DNA of 33,890 nucleotides from a virus, in IMG/VR virus record IMGVR_UViG_3300025889_000474, positions 1 to 33,890 of that record; one strand, written 5' to 3'. This document shows positions 8,951 to 33,890 of the stretch, piece after piece. The notes beneath the pieces are model-generated. The model ran no database searches. It was not told where the DNA came from and saw nothing but the letters and a program-made list of their open reading frames with translations. A program made the position numbers and the translations under genes. How positions within the stretch are numbered: the stretch's first letter is position 1; each line of letters begins with the position of its first letter.

Positions 8951-9223
8951 TTATGCAGCTGCTTTACGGCTATAACCGTAGAGCCTGATTTGTAAACCTT
9001 CGGTGACTTTGGTGTGAGCCTTGATGAATTGGCGTGATAGCTTTTCTCGAACCGCATCCATATCAAGGGTCTCTCGGCTGAACTCAGAAACTACAGCGTA
9101 GTGCGTCGTGCCATCGTAAGTGCCAGTGCCAGATTGTTTTAGTTCGTCAACCAAAAGCGTTTCTAATTTTTTAAGGTCAGCAATTTTTGCTCTGATCTCT
9201 GCTAATTTATCTACTGTGTTCAT
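8951..9223 (-). CDS. Small conserved-type phage protein with N-terminal coiled coil, 90 aa
   Basis: Residues 3-30 (VDKLAEIRAKIADLKKLETL) form a short coiled coil. The rest follows a pattern I associate with small conserved phage proteins: a TYDGTTHYAVVSEFSRETLD stretch, then REKLSRQFIKAH. No enzymatic function is known to me. The ribosome-binding site is the extended CTGAGAAAGGAAA motif, preceded by a C(UUCG)G hairpin at 9246-9261. This is the same leader arrangement as seen before the rightward early gene at 21305. Confidence 0.7.
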   Translation of the reverse strand: MNTVDKLAEIRAKIADLKKLETLLVDELKQSGTGTYDGTTHYAVVSEFSRETLDMDAVREKLSRQFIKAHTKVTEGLQIRLYGYSRKAAA

Positions 9224-9228
9224 TTTAA

Positions 9229-9261
9229 TTTCCTTTCTCAGAAGAGAGGGCCGAAGCCCTC
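9229..9261 (-). promoter_or_regulatory. UUCG-tetraloop intercistronic hairpin plus extended RBS
   Basis: On the transcribed (minus) strand GAGGGC-TTCG-GCCCTC (9246-9261) forms a perfect 6-bp stem closed by the very stable C(UUCG)G loop. It is followed by CTGAGAAAGGAAA (9229-9241), the ribosome-binding region of the 90-aa gene. There is no U-tract, so it does not look like a terminator. Comparable CUUCGG hairpins in phage T4 intercistronic regions are established; a role in mRNA stability or decoupling here is inferred. Confidence 0.75.
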
Positions 9262-9264
9262 GAT

Positions 9265-9531
9265 TTAGAATATGTATGACTTAACACTTTTTGGAGTGTT
9301 GGCTTTTGTGCCGTAGAACCCGAGGCACATTTTCTTGAGAATCGACTTGGCCTTTCTGACCGAGTAATCGATCTCGACAAAGTCGTCAGCAATTTTGTTG
9401 TCAACTTTCTCGATACGAATGGGGTGCTGCACGAATACAACTTTGGACCACTTGCGACCGCGCTCGACAAGCAAAGCATGGCGATGCTCACAGCTGTCTT
9501 TCCTAACAAAAAATGTGCGTACAACTTTCAT
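9265..9531 (-). CDS. Small basic hypothetical protein, 88 aa
   Basis: An 88-residue Lys/Arg-rich protein beginning MKVVRTFFVRKDSCEHRHAL, with no recognised domain. Start is supported by TGAGAAAGGAACGCAT directly before the ATG, the extended RBS motif shared by many genes of this operon. It is the first gene after the 141-bp gap at 9532-9672 that contains a promoter-like sequence, so it may begin a separately transcribed sub-operon running to 5280. Confidence 0.65.
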   Translation of the reverse strand: MKVVRTFFVRKDSCEHRHALLVERGRKWSKVVFVQHPIRIEKVDNKIADDFVEIDYSVRKAKSILKKMCLGFYGTKANTPKSVKSYIF

Positions 9532-9577
9532 ATGCGTTCCTTTCTCAAAAAACGAAGTAAATTAACTCCATCTAGTA

Positions 9578-9605
9578 ATTATACATTTCTGGTCAGAAAA
9601 TACAA
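9578..9605 (-). promoter_or_regulatory. Candidate internal sigma-70-type promoter (leftward)
   Basis: On the minus strand a perfect TATAAT lies at 9583-9578, with TTGTAT 16 bp upstream at 9605-9600. Only three of six -35 bases match consensus. It lies in the 141-bp AT-rich gap (9532-9672) between the AT-rich 241-aa gene and the 88-aa gene, about 46 bp before the latter's ATG. This would let 9531-5280 be transcribed separately. No terminator was recognised in the gap. Confidence 0.4.
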
Positions 9606-9672
9606 TAGTTTATTTCATCATATAAATCAAAGACTTGCGAGGGCTTTTTCTACGATTTATAAAATTTATTAG

Positions 9673-10398
9673 CTAAATATCTTTTTTAAAGCCCAAATTC
9701 CTGAGTAGACCGTCCAAAGAGTCGTAAAGTTTGTTTAAAGGTATGAATGTTTTATAACGCTTTACATCTGTGCATGTTCTCATAGCCCTTAATATTTTTT
9801 CGTCTTCATAGACTCTTTTTAATTTTATCTCTTGATCTCGCGAACTGAACCTAACCACAAACAACGGGTCATTATGTTTGATTTTTATTTCTGTTACTCC
9901 CGAAATAATTTCTCCACTTACGTCAATTGGTCTTATCCATTTGCCAATATCATAAACTCCAGAAACGAAAGCAATTTTATTATGTATAGGGTTTATCTCC
10001 GGTAAAAAGTAAAACGGTATTGATTCCATTTTTACAGATTTATCAGAAAAAAATAATAATTTCGGCATTGTGGTAATTCCAAATTTATTTTTGCCAAAAT
10101 AATCTTCATCTCTGAGCATAAAAAAATTATCGTAAAAATCTTGATCTAATCTATCAAGTTTTAAAGATGGTGGGTTACGACCAACTGTTATGATTACATC
10201 TACTGGGGATTTTATGACAAAAGAATTTTTGCAATAATCCATGAAAGCGTAACATTTAAGATGCCGAGGTAACCCATCGTAATTTAATTTTTTATATTGT
10301 TCTTTTAGATAATTGAATAAAGGTTCTGGTTCCGGTTGTGTGGACTCCAAACCTAAATGCCCATAAGTGACAACGCACCATTTAACTTCGGTCATCAT
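9673..10398 (-). CDS. AT-rich hypothetical protein, 241 aa
   Basis: A 241-residue protein (MMTEVKWCVVTYGHLGLES start) with no domain that I can name. Segments such as PSLKLDRLDQDFYDNFFM, PKLLFFSDKS, IPFYFLPEINPIH and YDIGKWIRPID recall unassigned conserved proteins of marine phages. The ATG overlaps the dnaE stop (ATGA at 10395-10398), arguing for coupled translation. Its base composition is clearly AT-richer than dnaE and the helicases, with few CGA codons and no CTCGAG that I found, which may mark a recent acquisition. It is the last gene before the 9532-9672 gap. Confidence 0.6.
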   Translation of the reverse strand: MMTEVKWCVVTYGHLGLESTQPEPEPLFNYLKEQYKKLNYDGLPRHLKCYAFMDYCKNSFVIKSPVDVIITVGRNPPSLKLDRLDQDFYDNFFMLRDEDYFGKNKFGITTMPKLLFFSDKSVKMESIPFYFLPEINPIHNKIAFVSGVYDIGKWIRPIDVSGEIISGVTEIKIKHNDPLFVVRFSSRDQEIKLKRVYEDEKILRAMRTCTDVKRYKTFIPLNKLYDSLDGLLRNLGFKKDI

Positions 10399-13205
10399 AA
10401 TTTTTTCCACTTCTCGATATGAATTTTTCTATAATTTGAATTTAGATAGCCTTTTATTAAATACCAATCGCCTATTTCTCCGGACTCTGCAATCGGTTTT
10501 CCAAGCTGAGAATATTTAAATCTATCGACCGTACACATGATCGGGCCAGTGTCATCCTCGACGGTAAGATTCAGCCAGATGTTGTTGGTCTCGATTCGAC
10601 GACCGTTGCGCTTTGAAACGCTCGAGGATTCGTTAAGGTCTTTGACAATCTTTTCTTTGATCTTGCCGAAGAATACAAATGTGCCGGGATTCTCAGTGCT
10701 CAGATCGACAATGTCTGTTATCGGGGTTCTGATATTGTATTTCTCCGGCTCACGTTTAATGTGACCGAATCGACGCTCGCACTCAAAAATATCGTCGTAT
10801 GCCGTCGATCCCTCATCGAGCAACGTCTCTTGCCTTGGGGTCAATGGCTGTTTTAGCTCTCGACGCTTGATAATGTCATCAGCCATTTTCGGGCCGATCC
10901 CTTTAATGCCAGATAGTCCACCGATCAGCTCACCGTCTTGAACCGACCAGTTTTGCTTTGATTTGAGCTTATCGAACGGCTTGTAGGTTAAACCTTCAGC
11001 CACGACCTCACGCAACAAACGAATCGCTTGTTCATCATCTTTAACATTACGCAAACACGCAGCAGCAAATTCAAGAGGAAATTTAGATTTAAGAACACAA
11101 GCCCAATAAGACACAAGACCATAAGCAATGGCATGAGAGCGATTAAAAGCCCAGCCTCCCATAGTATTAATTTGATCCCATATGAACCTTGCTTGATCTT
11201 CATCGACTCCATTTTCCGCAGCTCCTGATTTAAATTTGTCAAAGTAACGATCAAAGAACTCTTTCCCGAGCGACTTACTCATCGCCTTACGCAAGGCAGA
11301 AACGTCTTCCCAAGATAATTTACCAATTTCCCTGCCGATGTTCATTACCTGTTCTTGGTAAACCACAACCCCGTAAGTTACCCTTGTCGAGTCCTCGGTC
11401 ATCGGGTGGAGATACTGGATCGGTGCGTCACCGTTATGTCGGCGGATGAATTCGTTGGTTCCACCGGATTGAAGTGGTCCGGGTCTTGCTAGAGCGGTCA
11501 GCGCAGCAATGTCCTCGAACTTGCTGATCGTGATCTGTCGAGATACGGACTGTAATGCATAGCCCTCGAACTGGAAGATTCCAGCAAACTTCTCATCGTT
11601 TAGGATCGCAAATGCGCCTTCGTCATCCATCGGATGTTTCATTAACTGATCTCGAGACCAGCCAACCTGATCCAAAACATCTTGTAAAACAGACAGCGTT
11701 CTCAGCCCTAACGCATCAATCTTCAGCAAATTTAACTGTTCTGCGTCTCTCTTATCGATCTGAGCTGCACCAGTTTGCTCTGAAACCGAACAATATTGGC
11801 TCACTGGCTTTTCAGTGACGATAATCCCAGCTGCATGAACCCCGTTGTGTCGAGCGTGGTTTTCCATTTGTCCAGCGACCTTAATCTGTGGGTACTTCTC
11901 GACAACTTTCTTGCCCACATCTAGATCGTTTAACGTGTCCTCGATGCAGTTATTGATCCGAGGATCGCCCCAGTCACGCTCGATGATCGACTCTTTTAAG
12001 TCTTTGACTTCCCAAGCCGGGATCCCAAGCTCCTTGGCAACCTCACCGATTGTGCTCTTGGCCTTGTATCTCGAGACCGTTCCCAAGTGTGCGACCTTGT
12101 CAGAACCGTACTTATTTCTCAGGTACTCGAACACCATCTCTCGGCGGTCATCCTGAAAATCAATATCGATATCTGGCATATCAGCTCGGCTAATATCGAT
12201 GAACCGCTCGAACAAAAGATCATGCTCGATGGGGTCGATATCGGTAATCCCGATCAAATAACAAACCAATGAACCGCCGGATGAGCCTCTGGCTGGGCCG
12301 ACCAGCATCTTACGTTTTGCGTAATTGATCATATCGGCTATGACGTAGAAGTAATCCTCGAACTTCTTTTCTGCGATCATTGCCAGCTCACGCTCGACTC
12401 GAGGGCCGTAAACATCGTCAGTCAGATCGATGCCCTTTTGTTTTGCGCCTTCTTCACACATCTCTCGAAGGGTTTTATCTGGCGTGATCTTGATCATTTC
12501 AGCGGTTGGCAACTCTGCGTTGCACATCTGAGCGATCTTGTAAGTGTTCTCGAGCGCAATATCCGGCCCCCAAGGAACCGCTTCTCGCCATTCCCACTCA
12601 TCGAGGATATGCATTGGAGCGGTTCGATCCGTTCGATTGATGCCTACCAAAACCTCATAGGCTTTCTTATCTTGAACCGTTGGATAAAAATTATCCGAAG
12701 TAGCGACCACCTGAAAGCCCTTACTTTCAGCAAACTCGAGAGCTTTCTTAGAACTCATCGGGTTTAGCTCAATGTATAAATGATCTTTCTTGGTTCTCGG
12801 CAGCAGACTCCAATCTGGGTTCGATCCACTTAACATGATGATGTTCTCGCTCACATCGAACAGGTCTTCATATCCCAATCGAGGGTAATAATAAAAATGT
12901 TCTTTGTTTGTGCTGCGAGTTACAAGCTGGTAAAGCTCGGTCAGCCCATCATTATTCTTGGCGATAAACGCCATACTGTTAAATGGCTGTTTTGATTTGT
13001 CAGTTGCATCTGCGACTACTGCGATCTCGACACCGAGCAATGGTTTCTTTCCAGCTTTCTTACATGCTTTACTGAAATTAACATGGCCCCAAGTGCCAGT
13101 GTCACAAATTCCAATTGTGTCACCACCTACAGTATTGAGAACTTTATCGACAGAGCCAAATGCTTTTCTGAAACAATATTCAGTACGGACTCTAAGATTA
13201 ATCAT
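10395..13205 (-). CDS. dnaE: DNA polymerase III alpha (DnaE)-type polymerase, 936 aa
   Basis: A C-family DNA polymerase. From the ATG at 13205: a PHP domain begins at residue 1, GPARGSSGGS lies at 303-312, the catalytic MPDIDIDF at 343-350 and the third catalytic Asp in LKIDALGL (D497). A helix-hairpin-helix (GIKGIGPKMADDI) and a C-terminal OB-like region (about 845-936) follow. It is shorter than cellular DnaE (~1160 aa) and appears to lack the tau-binding end. The PHP entry strand reads NLRVRTEYCF where active enzymes have HLHxH, so PHP metal chemistry is probably lost; proofreading is likely supplied by the adjacent exonuclease. The start is chosen because PHP homology begins there. An in-frame TTG upstream (13289) would extend it by 28 residues. 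Confidence 0.92.
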   Translation of the reverse strand: MINLRVRTEYCFRKAFGSVDKVLNTVGGDTIGICDTGTWGHVNFSKACKKAGKKPLLGVEIAVVADATDKSKQPFNSMAFIAKNNDGLTELYQLVTRSTNKEHFYYYPRLGYEDLFDVSENIIMLSGSNPDWSLLPRTKKDHLYIELNPMSSKKALEFAESKGFQVVATSDNFYPTVQDKKAYEVLVGINRTDRTAPMHILDEWEWREAVPWGPDIALENTYKIAQMCNAELPTAEMIKITPDKTLREMCEEGAKQKGIDLTDDVYGPRVERELAMIAEKKFEDYFYVIADMINYAKRKMLVGPARGSSGGSLVCYLIGITDIDPIEHDLLFERFIDISRADMPDIDIDFQDDRREMVFEYLRNKYGSDKVAHLGTVSRYKAKSTIGEVAKELGIPAWEVKDLKESIIERDWGDPRINNCIEDTLNDLDVGKKVVEKYPQIKVAGQMENHARHNGVHAAGIIVTEKPVSQYCSVSEQTGAAQIDKRDAEQLNLLKIDALGLRTLSVLQDVLDQVGWSRDQLMKHPMDDEGAFAILNDEKFAGIFQFEGYALQSVSRQITISKFEDIAALTALARPGPLQSGGTNEFIRRHNGDAPIQYLHPMTEDSTRVTYGVVVYQEQVMNIGREIGKLSWEDVSALRKAMSKSLGKEFFDRYFDKFKSGAAENGVDEDQARFIWDQINTMGGWAFNRSHAIAYGLVSYWACVLKSKFPLEFAAACLRNVKDDEQAIRLLREVVAEGLTYKPFDKLKSKQNWSVQDGELIGGLSGIKGIGPKMADDIIKRRELKQPLTPRQETLLDEGSTAYDDIFECERRFGHIKREPEKYNIRTPITDIVDLSTENPGTFVFFGKIKEKIVKDLNESSSVSKRNGRRIETNNIWLNLTVEDDTGPIMCTVDRFKYSQLGKPIAESGEIGDWYLIKGYLNSNYRKIHIEKWKKL

Positions 13206-13258
13206 AGAATCAACAATGAAATGGTCACAACGATAATCTGAATTACGATTGGGTCCAT
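13202..13258 (-). CDS. 18-codon hydrophobic mini-ORF coupling exonuclease to polymerase
   Basis: Reads MDPIVIQIIVVTISLLIL and stops. It has a strong AGGAGG upstream of its ATG. Its ATG overlaps the exonuclease stop (TAATG) and its TGA overlaps the polymerase ATG (ATGA). This exact double overlap spans the whole gap between the two genes. The polymerase ATG itself has no recognisable ribosome-binding site, so ribosomes may arrive by translating this mini-ORF. The peptide is almost entirely aliphatic and could be a single membrane helix, or its sequence may be incidental to the coupling. Confidence 0.55.
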   Translation of the reverse strand: MDPIVIQIIVVTISLLIL

Positions 13259-13791
13259 TATAGATGCCCCTCCTTTTTGTACCATTCAACGATTCTCCAA
13301 GTCGCCTCTACATCACTTATTGATCGGTGAGCATCAGTGATTTTCTCGCCGAACAATTTTTCATGTATCACGCCAAGTTTCATTCGTTGTCCCCAAACCT
13401 TTTGGCAAATCTCTAATGTGCAGATATGCTCCGGAGGCCAAGGGAACTTGGTTAATTTATCAATCCTTTCTAACTCGAACCTCAATATCTTACTATCAAA
13501 CGGTAAATTATGAGCAACTAATTCACGTTCACCTAAAAAGAAATCGCAAAGTTCTTTGTAATACGCAATGAAAGGTTTCTCATTGGCTACCATATCGTCA
13601 GTAATGTTCGTGATCTTTGCAATTTTTTCTTCGATCTTTTCTCGAGGGTTACAAAGAAATTGCAAACGGCTGACTTCTTTTAAATCATCATCTAACTTGA
13701 TCGCACCAAACTCAATGATCTTGGGTTGGATGTCGAGGTCAGAACCTTCCGCTTTTGGTAAGCCAGTTGTTTCTAAGTCGAATATGATCAT
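13258..13791 (-). CDS. DnaQ-like DEDDh 3'-5' exonuclease, 177 aa
   Basis: Exonuclease of the DnaQ/epsilon class. Motif I is IIFDLETTGLP (D5, E7), motif II HNLPFDSKILRFE, and motif III DAHRSISDVEATW with the catalytic His and Asp. It would provide proofreading for the neighbouring DnaE-type polymerase; in cells the same pairing forms the Pol III core. The ATG at 13791 overlaps the zinc-ribbon gene stop (ATGA) and places motif I at the N-terminus, as usual; an in-frame ATG at 13836 would add 15 residues. Its stop overlaps the mini-ORF start. Confidence 0.9.
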   Translation of the reverse strand: MIIFDLETTGLPKAEGSDLDIQPKIIEFGAIKLDDDLKEVSRLQFLCNPREKIEEKIAKITNITDDMVANEKPFIAYYKELCDFFLGERELVAHNLPFDSKILRFELERIDKLTKFPWPPEHICTLEICQKVWGQRMKLGVIHEKLFGEKITDAHRSISDVEATWRIVEWYKKEGHL

Positions 13792-13949
13792 TTTCTTTTC
13801 AAAGTTAGTATTGGTCTTTTCTTCATACTTAAACAAACATCACAACGCCATTGTTTAGTGCCATTGCTGATGATTATTAGTTTTACTCCGGGTCGAGTCC
13901 TGCAACACTGACAATTTTTTTTAGTTTCGCCATTAAGAATTAGCGTCAT
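13788..13949 (-). CDS. Small zinc-ribbon protein, 53 aa
   Basis: A 53-residue basic protein with two CxxC pairs, CQCC (in NCQCCRTRPG) and CDVC (in QWRCDVCLSMKK), about 20 residues apart, the spacing of a zinc ribbon. It may bind nucleic acid or a partner protein. Start at ATG 13949 is chosen for GGAG 7 nt upstream. The start lies inside the 3' end of the 76-aa gene (overlap 17 nt), and the stop overlaps the exonuclease start (ATGA). Confidence 0.65.
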   Translation of the reverse strand: MTLILNGETKKNCQCCRTRPGVKLIIISNGTKQWRCDVCLSMKKRPILTLKRK

Positions 13950-14163
13950 TTTTAACTCCTTCCTGATAACCGTCATGCCATCCAGTTATATAAGTTCGTT
14001 GATATTCTGCGTCTACTTCTCTTAATCGCATCTCAAAACTTTTATTAAAAACTTGGATAACCGTTTGTAATTGAAACATCGACTCTTCTGATAAATCAAA
14101 AAGCCTTGCAACTTTTGTATCGTCTAACTCTAAATCGTTGCCTTTGATTTTTAATTTAAACAT
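13933..14163 (-). CDS. Small hypothetical protein, 76 aa
   Basis: A 76-residue helical protein (MFKLKIKGNDLELDD start; later EMRLREVDAEYQRTYITGWHDGYQEG) with no recognised domain. ATG 14163 is preferred, with AGGTG six nt upstream; an in-frame GTG at 14172 is the alternative. It overlaps the 88-aa gene by 8 nt and the zinc-ribbon gene by 17 nt, in a string of overlapping small genes. Confidence 0.6.
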   Translation of the reverse strand: MFKLKIKGNDLELDDTKVARLFDLSEESMFQLQTVIQVFNKSFEMRLREVDAEYQRTYITGWHDGYQEGVKNDANS

Positions 14164-14422
14164 TTTTGTCACCTACAATCTCGACTCTGCCGTATTGGAT
14201 ATCCCAGACTAAGTCTCGTCGATTGCCTCCTCGAGCCATAAACTCTTCGTAAAGAATTGGCTCACCAGCATCCAGCAAAATTTGTAATGATTTAAACCCA
14301 GAAGATTTTTTCCTTCTTGGATTCCAATCGATCAGGCAACGGATCATGCATCCTTCAAAGCTGGATCGCCTTCCTCGTTTCCTTTCCTTTGCGGATGAAA
14401 CATAAACGGTTATGTCTGTCAT
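14156..14422 (-). CDS. Small basic hypothetical protein, 88 aa
   Basis: An 88-residue Arg/Lys-rich protein (MTDITVYVSSAKERKRGRRS start, DWNPRRKKSSGFKSLQILLD in the middle) with no recognised domain. The charge pattern would suit nucleic-acid binding. The ATG follows AGAAAGGAAAAAA, the operon's recurrent ribosome-binding motif. It lies directly downstream of the UvrD-like helicase gene. Confidence 0.6.
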   Translation of the reverse strand: MTDITVYVSSAKERKRGRRSSFEGCMIRCLIDWNPRRKKSSGFKSLQILLDAGEPILYEEFMARGGNRRDLVWDIQYGRVEIVGDKNV

Positions 14423-14437
14423 TTTTTTCCTTTCTGA

Positions 14438-15898
14438 TTAAAGTTCGTAATATCTTAAACTTCTTGGCCTTACTACAAAAAGATTCTGTTTTGCTCTGGT
14501 GACGGCAACGTACCAGACCCTGTTCTCTTCATCTCGATGCGAGTTCTCCCAGCTCAATCGTCCCATGTCTGATATCAACGCAACATTATCTGCCTCACCA
14601 CCTTTTGATTGATGAATGGTTGAGATCGTGATCCTTGGCTTCTCGGAAAACTTCTCACCGTTTCGCAAACAAGATCGCAAGTATTCACGCTCATCCGGTG
14701 CAATCCCACGAAGCATTCGCATCCAGTCGAATGATCGAGCTGCATCAGGCAATCCCAAGTCTTTGAAAAAGTAATAGTCTTTTTTCTTGAGCCTCGGCTT
14801 ATCTGAGAAGAACTGCAACATGTTCTTGCACTCGAACAATGTGATCCGGTCACCTTTCCTGACTTTCTCCCAACTCACAATCGCTCTGGTCTCTTCAGAC
14901 TCGAGAGAATGCTGACCACTAAACGTGTAAGCGTATCCTTGTTGCCGAGCGACATGTTTAAATCGGTTCAACAAATATTTACTACGGCTCATACAAAGCC
15001 ATGTGCCTTGTCGAGAGAAATCAATTTCTTGTTCATCGGCAATGTGCTCGACTGCTCCTTGATCGATGCGCGGGGACCAAGGCTTCTGGTATCGATTCTT
15101 GATCCGGCTAACAATCCCCAGTGCGACTTTGTGAACCGCTCGAGGGATGCGATAACTTTGCGGAAGGATGCGTCGATCACCAGCCAGATTCAAAAACTTG
15201 TTTAGATCCGCGCCAGCCCAACTGAAAATTGCCTGATCATCATCGCCAGCAATGTAGACCTCTTTGGCATTCGCCGATGCCTTAATCGCCATTTTGTATT
15301 GAAGCGAACTCAAGTCTTGGGCCTCGTCGATGATGCAGATATCTACATCTAGCTCTGAGTTATACGCCTCGAGCATATCGGTAAAGTCGAACAGTCCAAG
15401 CTGGTGCTTATATTTTCGCAATGCTTGGTCATATTGTTTCACCGCGTGGAACGTCAGGTCATTTACCGAGGTCAAATTGTATTGGGCGTTGATAGATCGA
15501 AGACCGACCCGAGCCAAACTCTCGACCCTCGAGCACTTATCCCCTAGCCCATCCCCAACATGAATGCCCAAGTCTTCATCGTAGATCCCACGAAACTCGA
15601 TCCCTAGAGCCTTGCCTAGCTTGCGGTAATGGGTATTGGTCATGACCTCGTCACGCTGTATCCCCAGCTCTCGAAACGCTAACGAGTGCAATGTCCTGAA
15701 GAACGGGAAACGTATCTCATCGAATCCGAACTGTGCCATTGCTCGCTCTTGCGCTTCATACGCTGCTTTTCTGGTAAACGCCAGATATGCAATGCGCTCT
15801 GGTGGGACTCCACGACTTAGCGCACCCTCGACGATTTGTAGTAGCGTCGTGGTCTTGCCAGTGCCGGGTGGTCCGAGGATTAGCTGAACGTGTCTCAT
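14438..15898 (-). CDS. UvrD/Dda-like SF1 DNA helicase, 486 aa
   Basis: An SF1 helicase with a full motif set: Walker A GPPGTGKTT at residues 9-17, LAFTRKAA (Ia), DEAQD at 191-195 (II), GDDDQAIFSWAGAD at 218-231 (III), QSYR at 247-250 (IV), ISTIHQSKGGEADNV (V) and WYVAVTRAK (VI) near the C-terminus. At 486 residues it is smaller than cellular UvrD (~720 aa) and nearer phage Dda in size. The ATG overlaps the stop of the HTH gene (ATGA). As no DnaB-type helicase is visible in the window, this or the SNF2 protein may open the fork; that is inference. Confidence 0.93.
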   Translation of the reverse strand: MRHVQLILGPPGTGKTTTLLQIVEGALSRGVPPERIAYLAFTRKAAYEAQERAMAQFGFDEIRFPFFRTLHSLAFRELGIQRDEVMTNTHYRKLGKALGIEFRGIYDEDLGIHVGDGLGDKCSRVESLARVGLRSINAQYNLTSVNDLTFHAVKQYDQALRKYKHQLGLFDFTDMLEAYNSELDVDICIIDEAQDLSSLQYKMAIKASANAKEVYIAGDDDQAIFSWAGADLNKFLNLAGDRRILPQSYRIPRAVHKVALGIVSRIKNRYQKPWSPRIDQGAVEHIADEQEIDFSRQGTWLCMSRSKYLLNRFKHVARQQGYAYTFSGQHSLESEETRAIVSWEKVRKGDRITLFECKNMLQFFSDKPRLKKKDYYFFKDLGLPDAARSFDWMRMLRGIAPDEREYLRSCLRNGEKFSEKPRITISTIHQSKGGEADNVALISDMGRLSWENSHRDEENRVWYVAVTRAKQNLFVVRPRSLRYYEL

Positions 15899-16509
15899 TT
15901 TTGTTCAGCGTGGTAAGAATTGTTTTTGATCCATCTCATGAAAGAAATGAATTTATAAATTGAATGTTTTAAATCTTCATTATTTTCAAATTGCATAACG
16001 CCTAATGTTGTATCCATTTCTAAAAACTTCACAACATGTTCCATATGACCAATGATTTCTGTAACTTGCCTTGGTGATAAACTGCCCCACAACTCGTGAT
16101 AAGTTCTCATGGTGTTAATCTCCCAAATCATTTTCTGAATTACTGATCTCTCTTCGCCATTAAAATTATCAATTTTTTTTGTTTTATTTTCTTTATCTCT
16201 TATCTCATTTAAATCTTTAATAATAAATTTGTAGTTGTATTTAGTATAATTTGGTCTATCAGAAGCAATAATTTTTTCAACTTCATTAATACAAAGTTCT
16301 GTAAAAGTATCATCATTTAAATGTTTGCATACATTAACTAAATGTTTAACAGGAACAGTATTATCTAATTGAAACCAAGAATTAAAAGAAGAAATTTTTA
16401 CATTAAGTTTTTTAGCAAAATCTTTTCTTTTAATTTTTTTTGTACTTAAACATGAATGAAAATACCTAATAACATTTTTAGTTAATGGATTTCTTGAAGT
16501 TCTTGGCAT
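15895..16509 (-). CDS. Putative helix-turn-helix regulator, AT-rich, 204 aa
   Basis: The first ~70 residues look like an XRE-type helix-turn-helix (RKDFAKKLNVKISSFNSWF, then PVKHLVNVCKHLN). The remainder is helical, with no recognised domain. The ATG is preceded by AAGAAAGGAACAAT. The stop overlaps the helicase start (ATGA). Its base composition is far AT-richer than the primase and helicase on either side, with no CTCGAG seen, which suggests separate ancestry. A DNA-binding regulator sitting inside a replication operon could control the divergent region at 20067-20407. The HTH call is from residue pattern only. Confidence 0.55.
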   Translation of the reverse strand: MPRTSRNPLTKNVIRYFHSCLSTKKIKRKDFAKKLNVKISSFNSWFQLDNTVPVKHLVNVCKHLNDDTFTELCINEVEKIIASDRPNYTKYNYKFIIKDLNEIRDKENKTKKIDNFNGEERSVIQKMIWEINTMRTYHELWGSLSPRQVTEIIGHMEHVVKFLEMDTTLGVMQFENNEDLKHSIYKFISFMRWIKNNSYHAEQK

Positions 16510-16521
16510 ATTGTTCCTTTC

Positions 16522-18060
16522 TTAAAATTGCTCCGTCACAGTTGTTGGAATGTCGAGGTCATCTTCATCATCAAAGAACTCTGGTGCTGGAACTGACCAC
16601 ACTTTAACGGGTTTGGATTTAATGCGAAATGTCTTTCGATCTCCGCCCACCTCTCGAAGCCAGCTCCATATCTGATGTTGCGACGGATACCGGAAACGTC
16701 GAGCGTCAAGATAAATAAACAAATCCTCTGATCGAAAGTAAACCTTTGACTCGTCTGGGTCATGCCAAGGCTTGGCGTTCATGATCTCGTCTCGATGTCG
16801 AGCCTGAACCTTTCCGGTCAAGAACGTATCGAGCATCTTGGCAAATTGTCCTTGTGGAGATGCGTCATCGGGATCTTGAATTACCTCAACTGAATTGAGT
16901 AGCTCGTTGATCCGTTGCTCCCAGCGTTGCGCTGGCATTGTGCTCGGACACTTATTTAGTTTCTCGACACAAATCTTTTGGAGCTGACGCTGGTCGAGGA
17001 GCTGCTGAGTAGATACTTCAATCCTCTCCCCTTGGATTTCGATGTACCACCTTACCGAACTTCGGTTCTCGGTTTCGTACTTCGTGATTGCATCAATCTC
17101 AATTGCAGCTCCTCCACCAATTCTTCCAATTCCAAACTCACGCTTCATACACTTAGACTTCTCGCAATAGTTACAGATCGGAGACTGTTTGCATGTGTAT
17201 GCGTAATCTTTTTTACTGACTGACTTAACCAGTGCGTTTACTTCGCCAGATGGTAATGGCGTAGATAAATGCTCGTAATTAAATCGCATCAAATCTTCTT
17301 GCCAATCGTCAGGGTTCTTCTTGCGAAAGTACACGCCGACATTGAACAAAGAAATGTTTCGACCGCCCTCGGTAAATCCCATCGTCATAATGTGCTGAAG
17401 GCATGGTGGCCCATCAGCAAATAGATTGGTTAACTCTGGCTCATACCCTTGTAGGTTTTCCCAGCTAATTGTTTTCTTTTCTGCGAGTTCAACGAACTCT
17501 GCGAACGATAGCTTTTTGCCTTTGTGAATTGCATAACGCTCAGTGTTGTCTCCATCCCAATAACACAAGTTGATCCAGTTGCCTCGGTCTCGCTCATTTG
17601 CTCGGGAGATTTGTTTGGGGAATATCTCTGCCCCACCGTAACCTAGCGTCGCTGCGAATTCGTTTAGCTTTGCGACAATGTCTATAGCTGCGACCGCTGG
17701 TTCACAGAACAAATACAAATGTGCGCCACCACTTTTAGATCGGCACAATATCAATGGTGTCTTGCGTATCTTCTTCTCGAGCGAATCGAGAGTCTCGTTT
17801 AACTTCACCTCGCCTCGGATATCGATGTCGATCACGCCGAAGTTACAAGAGTTGTCATCTCTGAGCATGATGATGCCGAGAATGTAATCGCCCCCTGAGA
17901 TGTGTTGCTCGAAATGATGAAGTGTTGCTGGTTCTGAAATCGTTAATGCTCTTCCTGACATCTTGCCATCGGCTTCACGTTTCTTAACTCTGTATTGTCC
18001 GTGCGCTGACGAGTAGCCACGAAACAATTTCATGAAGCGTTTAACGAGTGCTTCTTCCAT
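16522..18060 (-). CDS. Archaeo-eukaryotic-type primase (AEP), 512 aa
   Basis: AEP-superfamily primase-polymerase. Motif I is NFGVIDIDI (D78, D80), motif II SKSGGAHLYLF (H114), and further elements are EIFPKQ near 145-150 and GNWINLCYW near 160-168. A Cys cluster, C290, C296, C299 and C304 (within KQSPICNYCEKSKCMKREFG), with C220 upstream, could bind zinc or an Fe-S centre as in PriL-like domains. It resembles the primase domain also used in TOTE-type conflict systems. The C-terminal ~180 residues have no recognised catalytic motif. It probably primes DNA synthesis for the DnaE-type polymerase. The ATG follows AGAAAGGAACGGTTCCTG, itself preceded by a UUCG hairpin. Confidence 0.85.
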   Translation of the reverse strand: MEEALVKRFMKLFRGYSSAHGQYRVKKREADGKMSGRALTISEPATLHHFEQHISGGDYILGIIMLRDDNSCNFGVIDIDIRGEVKLNETLDSLEKKIRKTPLILCRSKSGGAHLYLFCEPAVAAIDIVAKLNEFAATLGYGGAEIFPKQISRANERDRGNWINLCYWDGDNTERYAIHKGKKLSFAEFVELAEKKTISWENLQGYEPELTNLFADGPPCLQHIMTMGFTEGGRNISLFNVGVYFRKKNPDDWQEDLMRFNYEHLSTPLPSGEVNALVKSVSKKDYAYTCKQSPICNYCEKSKCMKREFGIGRIGGGAAIEIDAITKYETENRSSVRWYIEIQGERIEVSTQQLLDQRQLQKICVEKLNKCPSTMPAQRWEQRINELLNSVEVIQDPDDASPQGQFAKMLDTFLTGKVQARHRDEIMNAKPWHDPDESKVYFRSEDLFIYLDARRFRYPSQHQIWSWLREVGGDRKTFRIKSKPVKVWSVPAPEFFDDEDDLDIPTTVTEQF

Positions 18061-18087
18061 CAGGAACCGTTCCTTTCTAAATATGCA

Positions 18088-18105
18088 GGAGGGCCGAAGC
18101 CCTCC
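18088..18105 (-). promoter_or_regulatory. UUCG-tetraloop intercistronic hairpin before the primase
   Basis: On the minus strand GGAGGGC-TTCG-GCCCTCC is a perfect 7-bp stem with a C(UUCG)G loop. It lies between the secreted-protein gene and the primase gene. It is followed by AGAAAGGAAC, the primase ribosome-binding region. There is no U-tract, so a terminator is unlikely. It is the longest member of the hairpin set. Confidence 0.75.
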
Positions 18106-18115
18106 CGTTGATTAC

Positions 18116-18304
18116 TTAAATGTTATATGGGCAATAGCTTGCGAAAACATAACGCTGGACATACTTGCACTGCGTGTCCATACAATACGTTCCGACATAT
18201 CTGTACCCATCCGCTGTCATGACCCCGTCGCATTTCAATAATCGTCCTGCAAGCGCGGTCAACGGCAACGCAATCAGCAAAGCTGCTATGACTTTCTTTA
18301 CCAT
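18116..18304 (-). CDS. Small exported Cys-containing protein, 62 aa
   Basis: Residues 1-20 (MVKKVIAALLIALPLTALAG) form a typical Sec signal peptide: basic start, hydrophobic core and an ALA-G cleavage site. The ~42-residue mature part has four cysteines (C25, C41, C46, C58), which could form two disulfides in the periplasm. Strong GGAGG before the ATG. No lipobox Cys at the cleavage point. An exported protein inside a replication operon is unexpected; a role in superinfection exclusion or envelope modification is speculation. Confidence 0.7.
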   Translation of the reverse strand: MVKKVIAALLIALPLTALAGRLLKCDGVMTADGYRYVGTYCMDTQCKYVQRYVFASYCPYNI

Positions 18305-18313
18305 GTTGTCCTC

Positions 18314-19102
18314 CTAAAAAGTTTCGCCGTCTGTGTCTTGGGAAACTTTTACTTCCCCTGCTTTTATTTGTTCTCTGAACGCTCGAGCTGCGAGGTAAAT
18401 CTCTTTGCCGTTCGGCAAGTTCTGAATGATTCCTCCGCTTTGTGCGTCGTACAACATTTTGATCGACCACCCAAACCACGAACCCTGATCGTTTTCTTCT
18501 GGGACTGTGGAGAGTAAGTATGCGGTCCAGAAACTTGCAGCTGGTACTCGCTGACCATTCACGTCGATTTGTAATCGTGTCATCATCGCGTTCCACTGTC
18601 GAGCCTTTTTACTCTGACTCTTTGACATGCTGATCGATGCGGATGTGAAAGAACCATCTTCTCCGACCACGAACACATAAAACTCTGATGTTGGAACGAT
18701 CTCGTTTCCTTCAGCGGTCAGATACTCACCGCGTGATCCTCGAGTTAAACCTTCGAGGCAAGAGCTGTCCGGACCATGATCCGCAACAAATCCTCCACGA
18801 TCCGCTTTCCACTCGAGATGTGCTTTACGGAAACTAATTGGCACGACGATCAAACCTGTTGCGCCATCGTGAACGCTGTTCGCTACGTTGTCGAAGATCG
18901 AGCCTTGCTCGGCTCCCTCGATGTATGCGCCGTCACGTTTGTTGACTTGGGGACTCAACGCTTGAAGGATGCTCAGTCTCGGGATGATCAAATCGTCACG
19001 AGTGACGTTTTCTAGACCAGCCCCTGCATCGGCTAAAAGAATCGACTCATCGAACACCGCAACTTCGGTGTTTTGTTTCTTTGCTACTTCGTTTTTTGCC
19101 AT
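18314..19102 (-). CDS. Conserved phage protein, possible ssDNA-binding role, 262 aa
   Basis: A 262-residue protein with features I associate with a widespread phage replication-module family: PRLSILQALSPQVN, GAYIEGAEQGSIFDNV, GLIVVPISFRKAHLEWK, then KSQSKKARQWNAMMTRL and STVPEENDQGSWFGW. Relatives are usually unnamed; an ssDNA-binding role has been guessed from context and is not shown here. Start at ATG 19102 is chosen for GGAG 8 nt upstream, and it lies 4 bp past the previous stop. Placement directly before the secreted protein and primase fits a role in replication. Confidence 0.6.
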   Translation of the reverse strand: MAKNEVAKKQNTEVAVFDESILLADAGAGLENVTRDDLIIPRLSILQALSPQVNKRDGAYIEGAEQGSIFDNVANSVHDGATGLIVVPISFRKAHLEWKADRGGFVADHGPDSSCLEGLTRGSRGEYLTAEGNEIVPTSEFYVFVVGEDGSFTSASISMSKSQSKKARQWNAMMTRLQIDVNGQRVPAASFWTAYLLSTVPEENDQGSWFGWSIKMLYDAQSGGIIQNLPNGKEIYLAARAFREQIKAGEVKVSQDTDGETF

Positions 19103-19106
19103 GATG

Positions 19107-19700
19107 TTATCTCCTAATGTTGGCACGACGACCTGTGTAGATGCGGAATAAATCCATTGGAACTTCCTTTCCGTCACTGAGCCTTTCCCTCATGAAGCTA
19201 TTTAAGGTCTGGGGATGAACGGATGTTGCACGTTTGTAGTTGAGATGTTGATCCCGTAACGACTCCGTAAAGGCCGTCGCTATCGCGTCTTCGTCTCGCC
19301 CAAATTGGACCTCAACAGAGCTTTTGATCAGGTCTGCGCCACCATTGGCGCGAAGCCAGTCAAAGCACTGGGCTTGCAGAACGAGCAACTCGGCTCGCAC
19401 ACTTTCCTCTTTTTGACGCTCAATCGAGCTTGAGGAAGGGATGCTTGCTTGGATCACATCCTTCACTTCTACCTTCGAGCCATCGTTCAGCTCAAAGCTC
19501 CGGATGTTGAGTTCCTGCATCAGATCGGGTAGATCGTGTTCCGCCAACATTTTGAGTTCCTGCTTCTTTTGCTTAATGGTCTCTTCGAGTTGCAGGATCT
19601 CAGCCTCGAGATCATTCATTCGTTGAGCCATGTCAGCCACTGCACCAAGTTCTTGTGACGCTGGTGCTACGTCCATGAGCAGATCAATATCGGTTGACAT
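19107..19700 (-). CDS. Conserved phage protein with coiled coil, 197 aa
   Basis: Residues about 25-60 (QRMNDLEAEILQLEETIKQK and on) form a coiled coil. It is followed by a stretch typical of a phage replication-module family of unknown function: DLPDLMQELNIRSFELNDGS, then VHPQTLNSFMRERL near residue 160 and PMDLFRIYTGRRANI at the end. ATG follows TAAGAAAGGAACAGTAA, the extended ribosome-binding motif. Its constant partnership with the next gene (possible ssDNA binder) suggests a joint role in DNA metabolism, which remains inference. Confidence 0.6.
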   Translation of the reverse strand: MSTDIDLLMDVAPASQELGAVADMAQRMNDLEAEILQLEETIKQKKQELKMLAEHDLPDLMQELNIRSFELNDGSKVEVKDVIQASIPSSSSIERQKEESVRAELLVLQAQCFDWLRANGGADLIKSSVEVQFGRDEDAIATAFTESLRDQHLNYKRATSVHPQTLNSFMRERLSDGKEVPMDLFRIYTGRRANIRR

Positions 19701-20066
19701 TTACTGTTCCTTTCTTAATTCGAGAGCAACGGGCATGTACCACCCTTTGCGCCTGTCACGCTCGCCTTCTTCTAGATTGCGCTCCCATCGGAGCACCCTG
19801 ACTGTGGAGGCTCGCTCGCTGGCGATCATACAAACGATCATGACGGCGATTGGGTCTCCACCTCCGGGCCAGAGGATATAATCATCCGGCCCAAAGTCTT
19901 TCATCACCCTACGAGCCTTCTGGATGCTCGGGATAGGTAAAAATTGCGGTCGGTCGTTTTCCTCGAATATGACCTCAAGGGTTCCGTACCGAGCAGCGTC
20001 GCTTAAATCTGGGGTCCAGCCGAACTTATTACGGGTCGGGCGGTTTACCACATATACCTTTGGCAC
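19701..20066 (-). CDS. First gene of the leftward operon, hypothetical, 121 aa (GTG start)
   Basis: A 121-residue protein (PKVYVVNRPTRNKFGWTPD after the start) with no named domain. Its N-terminal pattern, with KARRVMKDFGPDDYILWPGG in the middle, is like small conserved phage proteins at the head of early operons. The start is GTG at 20066 with AGAAAGGACAG just upstream. As the first gene after the divergent region, it should be expressed earliest among the leftward genes. Confidence 0.6.
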   Translation of the reverse strand: MPKVYVVNRPTRNKFGWTPDLSDAARYGTLEVIFEENDRPQFLPIPSIQKARRVMKDFGPDDYILWPGGGDPIAVMIVCMIASERASTVRVLRWERNLEEGERDRRKGWYMPVALELRKEQ

Positions 20067-20197
20067 TTTCTGTCCTTTCTAACTTTCTCGTGATTTTCGC
20101 TAGTATGAACGACATCGGGAGGGATTGGAAGCGTTAGTTTTTATATATAAGAAAAATATTTTGAGAAAAAAATTTTGTGTTCAAAATTTGCGAAAAT

Positions 20198-20301
20198 GCG
20201 GTAACAGCGGTAACGCATGATCATTTGTTTAATAAAAACAATAAGTTACGAGTGTTACCTAGAAACTACTTTAACGGTAACGTATACCGGACTTTGGTTA
20301 C
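20198..20301. repeat. Iteron-like GTAAC/GTTAC repeat array
   Basis: Six copies of GTAAC or its complement GTTAC lie within about 100 bp: GTAAC at 20201 and 20210, GTTAC at 20245 and 20254, GTAAC at 20277 and GTTAC at 20297. The first pair is a direct repeat GCGGTAAC with 9-bp period. The second pair also has 9-bp period but opposite orientation. This suggests two facing dimer sites for a sequence-specific DNA-binding protein. Spacing and orientation are directly visible; the binder is unknown. Confidence 0.65.
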
Positions 20302-20332
20302 ATTTATTTATTGACCAGAGAACGCAAAAGTG

Positions 20333-20361
20333 TTGACTCGAAATGTTAAAAAATAGATAAT
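20333..20361 (+). promoter_or_regulatory. Near-consensus sigma-70 promoter for rightward early genes
   Basis: TTGACT at 20333-20338 and GATAAT at 20356-20361 are separated by exactly 17 bp. Five of six bases match consensus in each box. Transcription would start near 20368, giving a leader of about 40 nt to the ATG at 20408. It points right, into the early block 20408-22092, and implies use of host RNA polymerase. Confidence 0.75.
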
Positions 20362-20407
20362 TACTAAATCGGGAGACCAAATCCCAATAACTGAGAAAGG
20401 AAGAAAA

Positions 20408-21259
20408 ATGTTTATCGAAAGAAACTGGAAAGAAATCGTTGATCGGCAAGGCACTGCTTACATTTCAACTGGTGACCTTAATGGTTTCTACACATTAAAA
20501 GTTTACACGCTCACTATCTTTGATGATGGTTCAGCTGAGACTAAAGATCATTACATCAAGAACCTTTCAATAGACCCTAAAAAAGCTGACCAGATGCTTA
20601 AAGAGTACGCTCAGATTCATGGATGTGATATCGGTGCTGGTGCTGATTTTAAACTTGATGAACATAACAAGTGGTCTTTCTTTAGCAGTGTCACGATAGA
20701 CTCAATTAAAAAAGATCGAGTGTTTCGGTTTGGTAAATACTCAGGACAATCATTTGATGCAATCATAAAAAATGATTTGCGCTACATGCAGTGGTTGGCT
20801 TTTGATGAGGATTTCCCTGATCTAACAAAAAGACAATCTATTTTCAGATTGACCATTGCTGCAATTCAACAGCTTGTTGAAGAAGGTTCCATTTCTATCC
20901 CAGAAAAAGTTGAAGTTGTCGAAGAGCCAGTTGTTGAGAAAAAGACTTCAGAGTTCGTCGGCACAGTTGGCGAGAAGATCGAGCTTGATCTAGAGGTTGT
21001 TTACCGCACTTTTGTTAACAACAGGTTTGGTGGCTCTACATTGTTAATCATGGTCGATAAAGATGACAATGTGTTCAAAACATTTACCAATGCAAGCTGG
21101 TTATACGAGCCAATAACTGATGTTAATGAAGGACTGGTTAAAAGAGTTGTTAAAGGTGACAAGATCAAGATTGCTGGGCTTGTAGCCAAACACGAGACTT
21201 ATAACGAAGAAAAATCAACTTTGTTAAAAAGACCCAAATTAATAGAAATACTTGTATAA
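20408..21259 (+). CDS. Early protein with DUF3820-like and OB-fold-like parts, 283 aa
   Basis: The first rightward early gene. Residues about 105-140 (RFGKYSGQSFDAIIKNDLRY and on) resemble the small DUF3820-type module (FGKYKG...YLxWL) seen beside exonucleases. The C-terminal ~100 residues (SEFVGTVGEKIELDLEVV, later AKHETYNEEKSTLLKRPK) look like an OB-fold repeat found in several phage and plasmid proteins that handle nucleic acid. The N-terminal ~100 residues are unassigned. Driven by the promoter at 20333-20361. The ATG follows AACTGAGAAAGGAAGAAAA. Nucleic-acid binding is a reasonable inference; no catalytic residues were recognised. Confidence 0.6.
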   Translation: MFIERNWKEIVDRQGTAYISTGDLNGFYTLKVYTLTIFDDGSAETKDHYIKNLSIDPKKADQMLKEYAQIHGCDIGAGADFKLDEHNKWSFFSSVTIDSIKKDRVFRFGKYSGQSFDAIIKNDLRYMQWLAFDEDFPDLTKRQSIFRLTIAAIQQLVEEGSISIPEKVEVVEEPVVEKKTSEFVGTVGEKIELDLEVVYRTFVNNRFGGSTLLIMVDKDDNVFKTFTNASWLYEPITDVNEGLVKRVVKGDKIKIAGLVAKHETYNEEKSTLLKRPKLIEILV

Positions 21260-21269
21260 TTCATCACAT

Positions 21270-21299
21270 GGGTCTTCGGACCCTTAACTGAGAAAGGAA
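21270..21299 (+). promoter_or_regulatory. UUCG-tetraloop hairpin plus extended RBS
   Basis: GGGTC-TTCG-GACCC at 21270-21283 is a 5-bp stem with C(UUCG)G loop, followed by AACTGAGAAAGGAA at 21286-21299. The same 14-mer occurs at 20389-20402 before the preceding gene, and 13 nt of it (CTGAGAAAGGAAA) recur before the leftward gene at 9223. This is part of a repeated leader unit. Confidence 0.75.
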
Positions 21300-21304
21300 A
21301 ATTT

Positions 21305-21628
21305 ATGAAAAAATTTTGTAATCAGCACCTTTATACAGATATTGAGCCATTTGAAGTGATCCGAGTCATTTCGGAAAAGACCATTGAGATCCGTAAAATG
21401 AAGTGCGTAGAGCTGGATTGGGGCAAGCATTTTATCCCCGGTGGCTTTGCTTTCCACGTTCCTGATCAACAAAATCAAAAGTGGATTATCACTTCTGATG
21501 AGACACAGCCAGTAGTTAGAGCAAGACTAAATAAGCCAAAAGGCTATAAGCATGGTTTCTGGAGAAGTGACTACGGTCGGCACTACCTAGCCGATGAGCC
21601 AATTAAATTCTACGACTACAACTTTTAA
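21305..21628 (+). CDS. Conserved phage protein of unknown function, 107 aa
   Basis: A 107-residue protein ending in PIKFYDYNF, with HLYTDIEPFEVIRVISEKTI near the start, FIPGGFAFHV in the middle and QNQKWIITSD after it. This pattern is familiar from small phage proteins found widely, for which no function is known to me. The ATG lies 5 nt after the extended AGAAAGGAAAA site. It sits between two UUCG hairpins in the early block. Confidence 0.7.
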   Translation: MKKFCNQHLYTDIEPFEVIRVISEKTIEIRKMKCVELDWGKHFIPGGFAFHVPDQQNQKWIITSDETQPVVRARLNKPKGYKHGFWRSDYGRHYLADEPIKFYDYNF

Positions 21629-21632
21629 TAAA

Positions 21633-21648
21633 AGGGGCTTCGGCCCCT
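21633..21648 (+). promoter_or_regulatory. UUCG-tetraloop intercistronic hairpin
   Basis: AGGGGC-TTCG-GCCCCT forms a perfect 6-bp stem with the C(UUCG)G loop. It starts 5 bp after the previous stop and is followed by CGAGGAGAAG, the ribosome-binding region of the 75-aa gene. The three bases TCT follow rather than a U-run, so it is not a standard terminator. Confidence 0.75.
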
Positions 21649-21665
21649 CTTTCGAGGAGAAGAAA

Positions 21666-21893
21666 ATGGAAACCACATTTAAAGAAAAGCAGGACTTCAA
21701 TCGAGCGCTTGAGATTTCCTTGGATGTTGATAAGCGCGTTAGAGTCGTTGAATGGTTGTTGACTGGTGGCAGCGGTCATTTCGCCAAGGGTCTTGGGGAA
21801 GCTCTTCGTCACGCAGACTCCAACAACATAAACAAGATTGCCAAGACATGGCCATGGATCATCCTGAAAGCCTACGACCTTTCAATCAGATAA
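21666..21893 (+). CDS. Small conserved-type early phage protein, 75 aa
   Basis: A 75-residue protein with the pattern VEWLLTGGSGHFAKGLGEAL, then HADSNNINKIAKTWPWI. This resembles a small phage family (helix, Gly-Ser turn, 'ADxxN' motif) without known function. Start at ATG 21666 is chosen for GAGGAGAAG upstream; a longer frame from 21594 would run through the hairpin and is unlikely. Flanked by UUCG hairpins on both sides. Confidence 0.65.
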   Translation: METTFKEKQDFNRALEISLDVDKRVRVVEWLLTGGSGHFAKGLGEALRHADSNNINKIAKTWPWIILKAYDLSIR

Positions 21894-21897
21894 CTTA

Positions 21898-21913
21898 GGG
21901 GGCTTCGGACCCT
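21898..21913 (+). promoter_or_regulatory. Imperfect UUCG-type intercistronic hairpin
   Basis: GGGGGC-TTCG-GACCCT (21898-21913) keeps the C(UUCG)G loop and three G-C pairs but has one G/A mismatch next to the closing pair. It occupies the same place as the other members, just after a stop and before a GGAG ribosome-binding site (of the 53-aa gene). The mismatch makes it the weakest of the set. Confidence 0.55.
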
Positions 21914-21930
21914 CTTTAATGGAGAATAAA

Positions 21931-22092
21931 ATGGATAAAAGCAATTGGACACTACGTTATAACAGAACCGCTCGGGATATTTACGGCAAGAGCCTAACCA
22001 GATCAGACTTCGGTGAGCACAAAGATGAGCGCATTGTGGAGTTGTTTATCTGGTGCATGATCGGGATCTTTCTTGGAGCTTTGATTTTTTAA
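21931..22092 (+). CDS. Small protein with C-terminal membrane helix, 53 aa
   Basis: A 53-residue protein, MDKSNWTLRYNRTARD at the start and a single hydrophobic C-terminal segment (LFIWCMIGIFLGALIF) that should span the membrane with a short N-terminal cytoplasmic domain. ATG follows GGAGAATAAA. It is the last gene before the terminator near 22152. No recognised family; a tail-anchored early protein acting on the host membrane is possible. Confidence 0.7.
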   Translation: MDKSNWTLRYNRTARDIYGKSLTRSDFGEHKDERIVELFIWCMIGIFLGALIF

Positions 22093-22151: not shown

Positions 22152-22182
22152 GGGCTACTGAAACTGGTAGCCCTTTTCTTTT
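22152..22182 (+). terminator. Rho-independent terminator after the early block
   Basis: GGGCTAC (22152-22158) pairs perfectly with GTAGCCC (22167-22173) across an 8-nt loop, and TTTTCTTTT follows at once. It lies 59 bp after the last early gene and 66 bp before terS, separating early from late transcription. Confidence 0.85.
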
Positions 22183-22248
22183 GCCTCAAATTAATTCATA
22201 CTGCGGTCAATTAAATAGCGTTCATTGGCGTAAACAAAAGGATTTAAG

Positions 22249-33604: not shown

Positions 33605-33890
33605 ATGTCTCATCAGCATGAAGAAACGCAGTTGGAAGCAACTGAATATCCCAAACCAATGGGATGGAAAGTTCTAGTCAAACCAAACGAAGTCAAGAAA
33701 ACGACCAAGGGTGGCATTATTCTTTCAAACACCAGTCAGGAGAATGAAGAATATTTGACCGCACATGGGCATATTCTGGCGATGGGCGATTTGGCTTATC
33801 GAGACCGAGATTCTGGTCAGTCATGGAAAGGCTCATGGCCCAGTGTCGGTAACCGAGTTACCTACGGCAAGTATGCCGGACAGAAGCTCG
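33605..33890 (+). CDS. GroES-like co-chaperonin (Cpn10), partial, first 95 aa
   Basis: The N-terminal 95 residues of a GroES-type protein, cut by the window end. YPKPMGWKVLVKPNEV (15-30) is the first beta strand with the usual P-x-GxxVLVKP. TTKGGIIL (33-40) is the mobile loop with the IIL tripeptide that contacts GroEL. HILAMGDLAY (56-65) and PSVGNRVTYGKYAG (79-92) correspond to the G-x-V-xAxG and VGxxVxYxKYAG strands. Phage co-chaperonins redirect host GroEL toward folding the major capsid protein, which would be expected just downstream, outside the window. Confidence 0.85.
   Translation, partial: MSHQHEETQLEATEYPKPMGWKVLVKPNEVKKTTKGGIILSNTSQENEEYLTAHGHILAMGDLAYRDRDSGQSWKGSWPSVGNRVTYGKYAGQKL

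Follow-up and report, generated by a model that had tools for sequence, protein, structure and literature searches.

Early-type genes of an uncultivated phage family carry an AGAAAGG Shine-Dalgarno sequence, in part combined with a conserved leader hairpin and an early promoter

Early-type genes of a viral DNA and of its relatives are preceded by AGAAAGG, an early-class Shine-Dalgarno sequence that is scarce in front of late genes. In a subset of these leaders, a hairpin conserved by base pairing as a structured RNA is found just upstream of this sequence. The constituents are variants of known elements. What is new is a conserved early promoter, found in many leaders, together with a hairpin that fills the space between this promoter and AGAAAGG, an arrangement missed by the sequence-only reading that had first described the leaders. 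The early-class specificity, the position, the compensation at the RNA level and the tie to a promoter family are directly supported by the comparisons reported here. We consider it probable, though by no means certain, that a 5' stem-loop and an extended Shine-Dalgarno sequence form an early-gene leader module, which would serve message protection and/or ribosome access.

The window, i.e. the whole stretch analysed, corresponds to positions 1 to 33,890 of the IMG/VR virus record IMGVR_UViG_3300025889_000474 (33,890 bases). Its replication genes are read on the minus strand from 20066 to 5280 and include a primase (16522-18060, -; phrog_21866, E 2.7e-98), a helicase, an exonuclease, DNA polymerase III alpha and a second helicase. 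On the plus strand, small genes (20408-22092) are followed by the terminase, the portal and further structural genes. By terminase, the closest named phages are Roseobacter phages CRP-901/902 (77%), which have terminase and portal in common with the window. Their replication module differs from that of the window (PMC10149686). A nucleotide search of known phages using the region gave no match, and a search of bacterial genomes with the primase found no relative. Three side features of the gene map can be mentioned: a co-chaperonin GroES-like gene (phrog_3188; 33605-33889, +) lies in the structural block, likewise in CRP-901/902; three consecutive early genes within 18314-20066 (-) match the Pfam families of cyanophage Pam3 gp32-gp34, in identical order; and a weak HTH protein is encoded at 15895-16509. 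Relatives were taken from IMG/VR (159 related loci), and a 12-genome set consisted of the window and 11 near-complete syntenic relatives. Genes were classed by gene content, "early" meaning the replication strand plus the small genes before the terminase and "late" the terminase onward, and it is from this gene content that we infer early timing.

Eight exact copies of AGAAAGGAA and the one-base variant AGAAAGGAC are positioned 5-12 nt upstream of nine early-type genes, the same nine that had been named from the sequence alone. On the minus strand, exact copies precede the primase gene (18070-18078), gene 8951-9223 (9230-9238) and gene 9265-9531 (9537-9545). Those before genes 14156-14422 (14427-14435, -) and 15895-16509 (16514-16522, -) have no hairpin, and the one before gene 19107-19700 (19707-19715, -) is inside the end of the upstream gene. 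On the plus strand, copies precede genes 20408-21259 (20394-20402) and 21305-21628 (21291-21299). The variant AGAAAGGAC (20072-20080, -) belongs to gene 19701-20066. A ninth exact copy of AGAAAGGAA (32785, +) is within a late gene. With at most one mismatch allowed, 26 copies are found in the window, 16.3 being expected.

Across the related loci, a start codon follows within 2-12 nt after 756 of the 773 copies of AGAAAGGAA, as compared to 31/59 for the reversed motif. AGAAAGG is retained gene by gene, before 82/95 homologues of the primase, 75/99 of the helicase, 71/74 of gene 19107, 64/70 of gene 19701 and 11/12 of gene 8951. Gene 18314, in the same operon, has it in 0/80 homologues and keeps AGGAG, and essentially no homologue of a structural gene carries it. 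In the 12 genomes, AGAAAGG is found upstream of 127/326 early genes versus 8/508 late genes (odds ratio 40, p 2.5e-49); p values overstate the independence of the data, several of the 11 relatives being close to one another, and the split is present in every genome. Tight packing of the late genes is ruled out as the cause, since among genes with an upstream gap of at least 30 nt AGAAAGG is found at 90/121 early and 2/66 late genes (p 1.3e-23). AGAAAGG is enriched before early genes, and not within genes or before late ones, in agreement with the early-class ribosome-binding sequence postulated by the sequence-only reading.

The class split is extreme, a shortage of space does not explain it, and conservation of the motif reaches beyond the AAGGA core. 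These features would also be expected if AGAAAGG were the site recognised by a phage factor, be it a repressor resembling RegA, an RNase resembling RegB or an antisense RNA, that targets the early messages all together. The result would be a post-transcriptional early-late switch, and this switch would be the reason why late genes avoid AGAAAGG. T4 provides a precedent, with RegB cutting GGAG in early leaders (PMC3014915). In 50 kb of annotated Ruegeria megaplasmid sequence, moreover, AGAAAGG is atypical (0/52 genes), which fits such a factor and also rejects the megaplasmid as the source of AGAAAGG usage. However, no RegA/RegB-like protein was found among the scanned proteins of the window, itself an incomplete genome, and GGAG-type sites are found at 27% of early genes, including gene 18314 of the same operon. 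Such a factor is possible but, in our view, rather unlikely. Slightly less likely again is a system in which two Shine-Dalgarno classes (AGAAAGG early, GGAG late) are read by a dedicated trans-acting factor, early messages being switched together and the 5' hairpin acting as a modulator. If true, it would be the mirror image of the T4 RegB logic.

AGAAAGG could also be the mark, with no regulatory role, of a replication module acquired from a lineage whose Shine-Dalgarno preference was different. CRP-901/902, which share terminase and portal with the window but have another replication module, are in line with this history; AGAAAGG usage is not typical of them, CRP-902 having only 5 AGAAAGG-ATG sites, and they are rejected as its source. 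On the other hand, no donor was found, as distant phages sharing a related primase have 0-5 sites each. In addition, the small rightward genes by the divergence point are also marked (20/47), and gene-specific retention of AGAAAGG is long-standing. A purely historical origin therefore appears unlikely. The early use of AGAAAGG may thus reflect strong early translation, a T4-like trans-acting switch or module history.

Hairpins are found in the window where the sequence-only reading had located them, four perfect C(UUCG)G hairpins and an imperfect one, intergenic and in sense orientation, and hairpin and ribosome-binding sequence do occur together on both strands. The primase gene leader contains the CGGGAGGGC(UUCG)GCCCUCCUG hairpin (18086-18107, -; 9 pairs, -18.7 kcal/mol, z -3.73), whose directly intergenic position presupposes that the 62-aa ORF 18116-18304 is a true gene. 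The GAGGGC(UUCG)GCCCUC (9246-9261, -; 6 perfect pairs) and GGGUC(UUCG)GACCC (21270-21283, +; 5 perfect pairs) hairpins both have AGAAAGG 7 nt downstream; at the place of the latter, relative G001 (29843) has GAGGGGGG..CCCCCUC. The AGGGGC(UUCG)GCCCCU hairpin (21633-21648, +) and the imperfect GGGGGC(UUCG)GACCCUC hairpin (21897-21915, +; one bulge) precede the genes at 21666 and 21931, which have a GAGGAG-type (21654-21659) and a GGAG-type site (21921-21924), respectively, instead of AGAAAGG. Stems of at least 5 pairs with a TTCG loop number five in the window: four are intergenic and on the transcribed strand, and one (9426-9441, -) is intragenic, contains two G-U pairs and lacks the closing C-G pair. 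CTTCGG itself occurs 23 times (14.8 expected), and what sets these copies apart is that the stem-forming ones are intergenic. As compared to shuffled sequences, z is -3.7 at 18086, -1.4 at 9246, -0.6 at 21270, -0.7 at 21633 and -0.2 at 21897. Hence, the hairpin at 18086-18107 alone stands out against its base composition, the other UUCG-type hairpins being ordinary by energy. Since most stems are unexceptional when taken singly, the case rests on their position and on the relatives. A search with Rfam covariance models gave no match at the gathering score.

In relatives, the hairpin is conserved as an RNA structure. Folding of 44 non-redundant primase leaders gave a mean z of -3.9, with z < -2 in 39 of them. 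The 3' end of the hairpin is 5-12 nt from AGAAAGG (mode 8), the 5' arm is G-rich and the loop varies from 3 to 34 nt. Pair types vary at every stem position, and the inner pairs include all four Watson-Crick types. Because an unanchored MAFFT alignment of the primase leaders left the stems poorly aligned, we used an arm-swap test, which is independent of stem choice. The AGAAAGG-proximal arm is complementary, at a mean of 7.68 of 8 positions, to the region upstream of it in the same leader, compared with 5.96 for the regions of other leaders; none of 20,000 permutations reached the observed mean. Mismatches inside the primase stems are of the G-U type in 11 cases and of the A-C type in none. 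This self-specific complementarity, together with the preference for G-U over A-C, indicates that the hairpin is conserved as RNA through pairing, and the stems are thus compensated in relatives, as the sequence-only reading would have it. A palindromic DNA operator is disfavoured, the stems being variable and G-U outnumbering A-C by 18 to 2 in all (p 4e-4). The proposal that the C(UUCG)G loop is the shared element did not hold, as it is found in only about 5/95 primase leaders.

The idea of a single leader cassette is retained in part. Its class specificity and structural conservation stand, but hairpin and ribosome-binding sequence are not a fixed unit. By a strict criterion, a hairpin is present at 19/70 of the early AGAAAGG genes that have a same-strand gap, at 9/52 late GGAG genes (2.4 expected) and at some early GGAG genes. 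Since hairpins precede GGAG genes and are absent from many AGAAAGG genes, the two elements are class associated but separable.

Among late genes, we also observed a two-hairpin leader, in which a G+C-rich stem is followed by TGACTGC-UUCG-GCAGACA or TGACAGC-GAAA-GCUGACA and finally by GGAG. It was found at L166 9627 (-), L169 15279 (+), L172 11952 (-), L174 9110 (-), L177 5063 (-), L180 5589 (-), L186 1535 (-), L191 832 (-), L192 13310 (+) and L197 2990 (+). The swap of stem pairs and of stable tetraloops looks compensatory. The protein that follows starts with MxxTTFSGPV and has 145-174 aa in 9/10 cases (371 aa in L177); the two tested belong to unknown PHROGs.

A de novo search of AGAAAGG leaders with gaps identified the motif TTTACT/TTGCCT-17-GATAAT/GATACT in 151/277 of them. 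Scanning both strands of the 12 genomes with the derived promoter matrix (34 columns, fixed 17-nt spacer, cut-off 17 bits) gave 53 matches; 45 of these precede early AGAAAGG genes, and the reversed sequence gave no match. The distance from the -10 box to AGAAAGG is bimodal: it amounts to 7-19 nt in one class and to 24 nt or more in the other, and no value falls in between. Leaders of the long class have a hairpin between the -10 box and AGAAAGG in 31/41 cases, versus 4.2 expected from shuffles, with a mean energy of -9.2 versus -3.7. In these 31 leaders, the place of the stem-loop fits the predicted transcript starts. In the window, a promoter-like TTGACT-N17-GATAAT (20333-20361, +; 10/12 consensus matches) precedes the rightward early genes, and a pattern scan gave a candidate early promoter, TTGTAT-N16-TATAAT with the spacer palindrome TTTCTGACCAGAAA (9578-9605, -); both are below the matrix threshold. 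These promoter-like sequences of genes 20408 and 9531 are 32 nt from AGAAAGG, and the hairpins there are weak: a short GGGA-N7-UCCC hairpin for the former (20371-20385, +; -5.7 kcal/mol, z -0.62, weak alone) and a 9-pair G-U-rich hairpin for the latter (9550-9573, -; -8.2 kcal/mol, z -1.76). No early promoter was detected with the matrix upstream of the primase leader.

The spacer of the early promoters is often palindromic (TTCTCTGGCCAAATAAGAGA, TTTTCTGCCAGAAAG), as in L053, L099, L178 and many other early leaders, and a phage repressor could use this palindrome as its operator. Elsewhere in the window, a terminator-like hairpin with a TTTTCTTTTG tail (22152-22173, +) separates the small genes from those of the terminase, and just after it an early-promoter matrix match of 14.7 bits is found at 22171-22204.

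Could the leader hairpins be intrinsic terminators or attenuators that set expression ratios, and be close to ribosome-binding sites through compact packing? The window hairpins begin 3-10 nt past stop codons, similar hairpins are found at late genes, and at least 5 T are present within the next 8 nt at 9/44 primase hairpins. However, the T-run is absent from 35/44 primase and 40/41 promoter-leader hairpins (present at 1/41), and no terminator-like call was made for the window hairpins at 21270, 21633 and 21897. Moreover, a terminator placed after a gene's own promoter but ahead of the start codon would silence the gene, which makes this function unlikely for hairpins so placed. Termination is rejected for most copies, and as a general explanation we regard it as doubtful, a shade more so than module history. 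It is highly improbable that the hairpin serves an early replication protein as a sequence-specific translational operator, as at T4 gene 43: the hairpin does adjoin the Shine-Dalgarno sequence of a replication gene, but neither the sequence of its stem nor that of its loop is constant, loop length ranges over 3-34 nt, and the same arrangement precedes unrelated genes.

In the early-gene leader module that we favour, leaders dedicated to early genes would recruit the 30S subunit through the extended Shine-Dalgarno sequence AGAAAGGA, whose AAGGA is able to base-pair with the 3' end of the 16S rRNA. In a subset of leaders, the stem-loop is 1-12 nt upstream of the Shine-Dalgarno sequence, just beyond the expected initiation footprint. 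The predicted promoter-proximal order is promoter, start, stem-loop, AGAAAGG and start codon, so that the stem-loop would form the 5' end of the message. In bacterial mRNAs, 5'-terminal stem-loops stabilise the message by impeding RppH and RNase E (PMC3997798). The promoter-proximal stem-loop most likely blocks attack of the 5' end by these enzymes, and most likely also keeps the Shine-Dalgarno sequence unpaired, with predicted effects on both stability and translation. As no early promoter lies upstream of the primase leader, a 5'-end role there would require processing, or else the hairpin would act on translation only. Inside an operon, such a stem-loop would set the gene apart from the one upstream of it, shield any 5' end produced by processing and leave the ribosome-binding site accessible. 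Strength and position of the stem would be all that matters, which would let stem and loop letters drift with compensation.

The leaders resemble several known systems. CUUCGG hairpins were reportedly described in T4 intercistronic regions by Tuerk et al. in 1988; as here, UUCG-capped stable stems follow a stop codon and precede a Shine-Dalgarno sequence in sense orientation. However, UUCG is incidental across the present relatives, and the hairpin is tied to an early Shine-Dalgarno sequence and partly to promoters. Like the 5' stabilisers of the ompA/papA type (PMC3997798), the promoter-proximal hairpin is a short predicted 5'-end stem-loop, free in sequence, just before the ribosome-binding site. 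Unlike them, it would serve many genes of one inferred temporal class in a phage family, with operon-internal copies as well. As with T4 RegB/RegA (PMC3014915), it is the translation initiation region that distinguishes early from late messages. In T4, however, early GGAG is cut, whereas here AGAAAGG is early and GGAG late, and no homologue was found among the scanned window proteins. The T4 gene 43 operator (PMC3014915) is also a hairpin adjoining the Shine-Dalgarno sequence of a replication gene, but in T4/RB69 the sequence of its loop and of its upper stem is conserved, whereas here the stem alone is kept.

Overall, a 40-fold odds difference in Shine-Dalgarno type across a widespread family of uncultivated phages means that the leader by itself suffices to tell the temporal class of a gene. 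Whether the timing of phage genes is encoded in the ribosome-binding site is now directly testable. The leaders also constitute a natural series, different in sequence and conserved in shape, for the effects of 5' stem-loops on mRNA life and translation.
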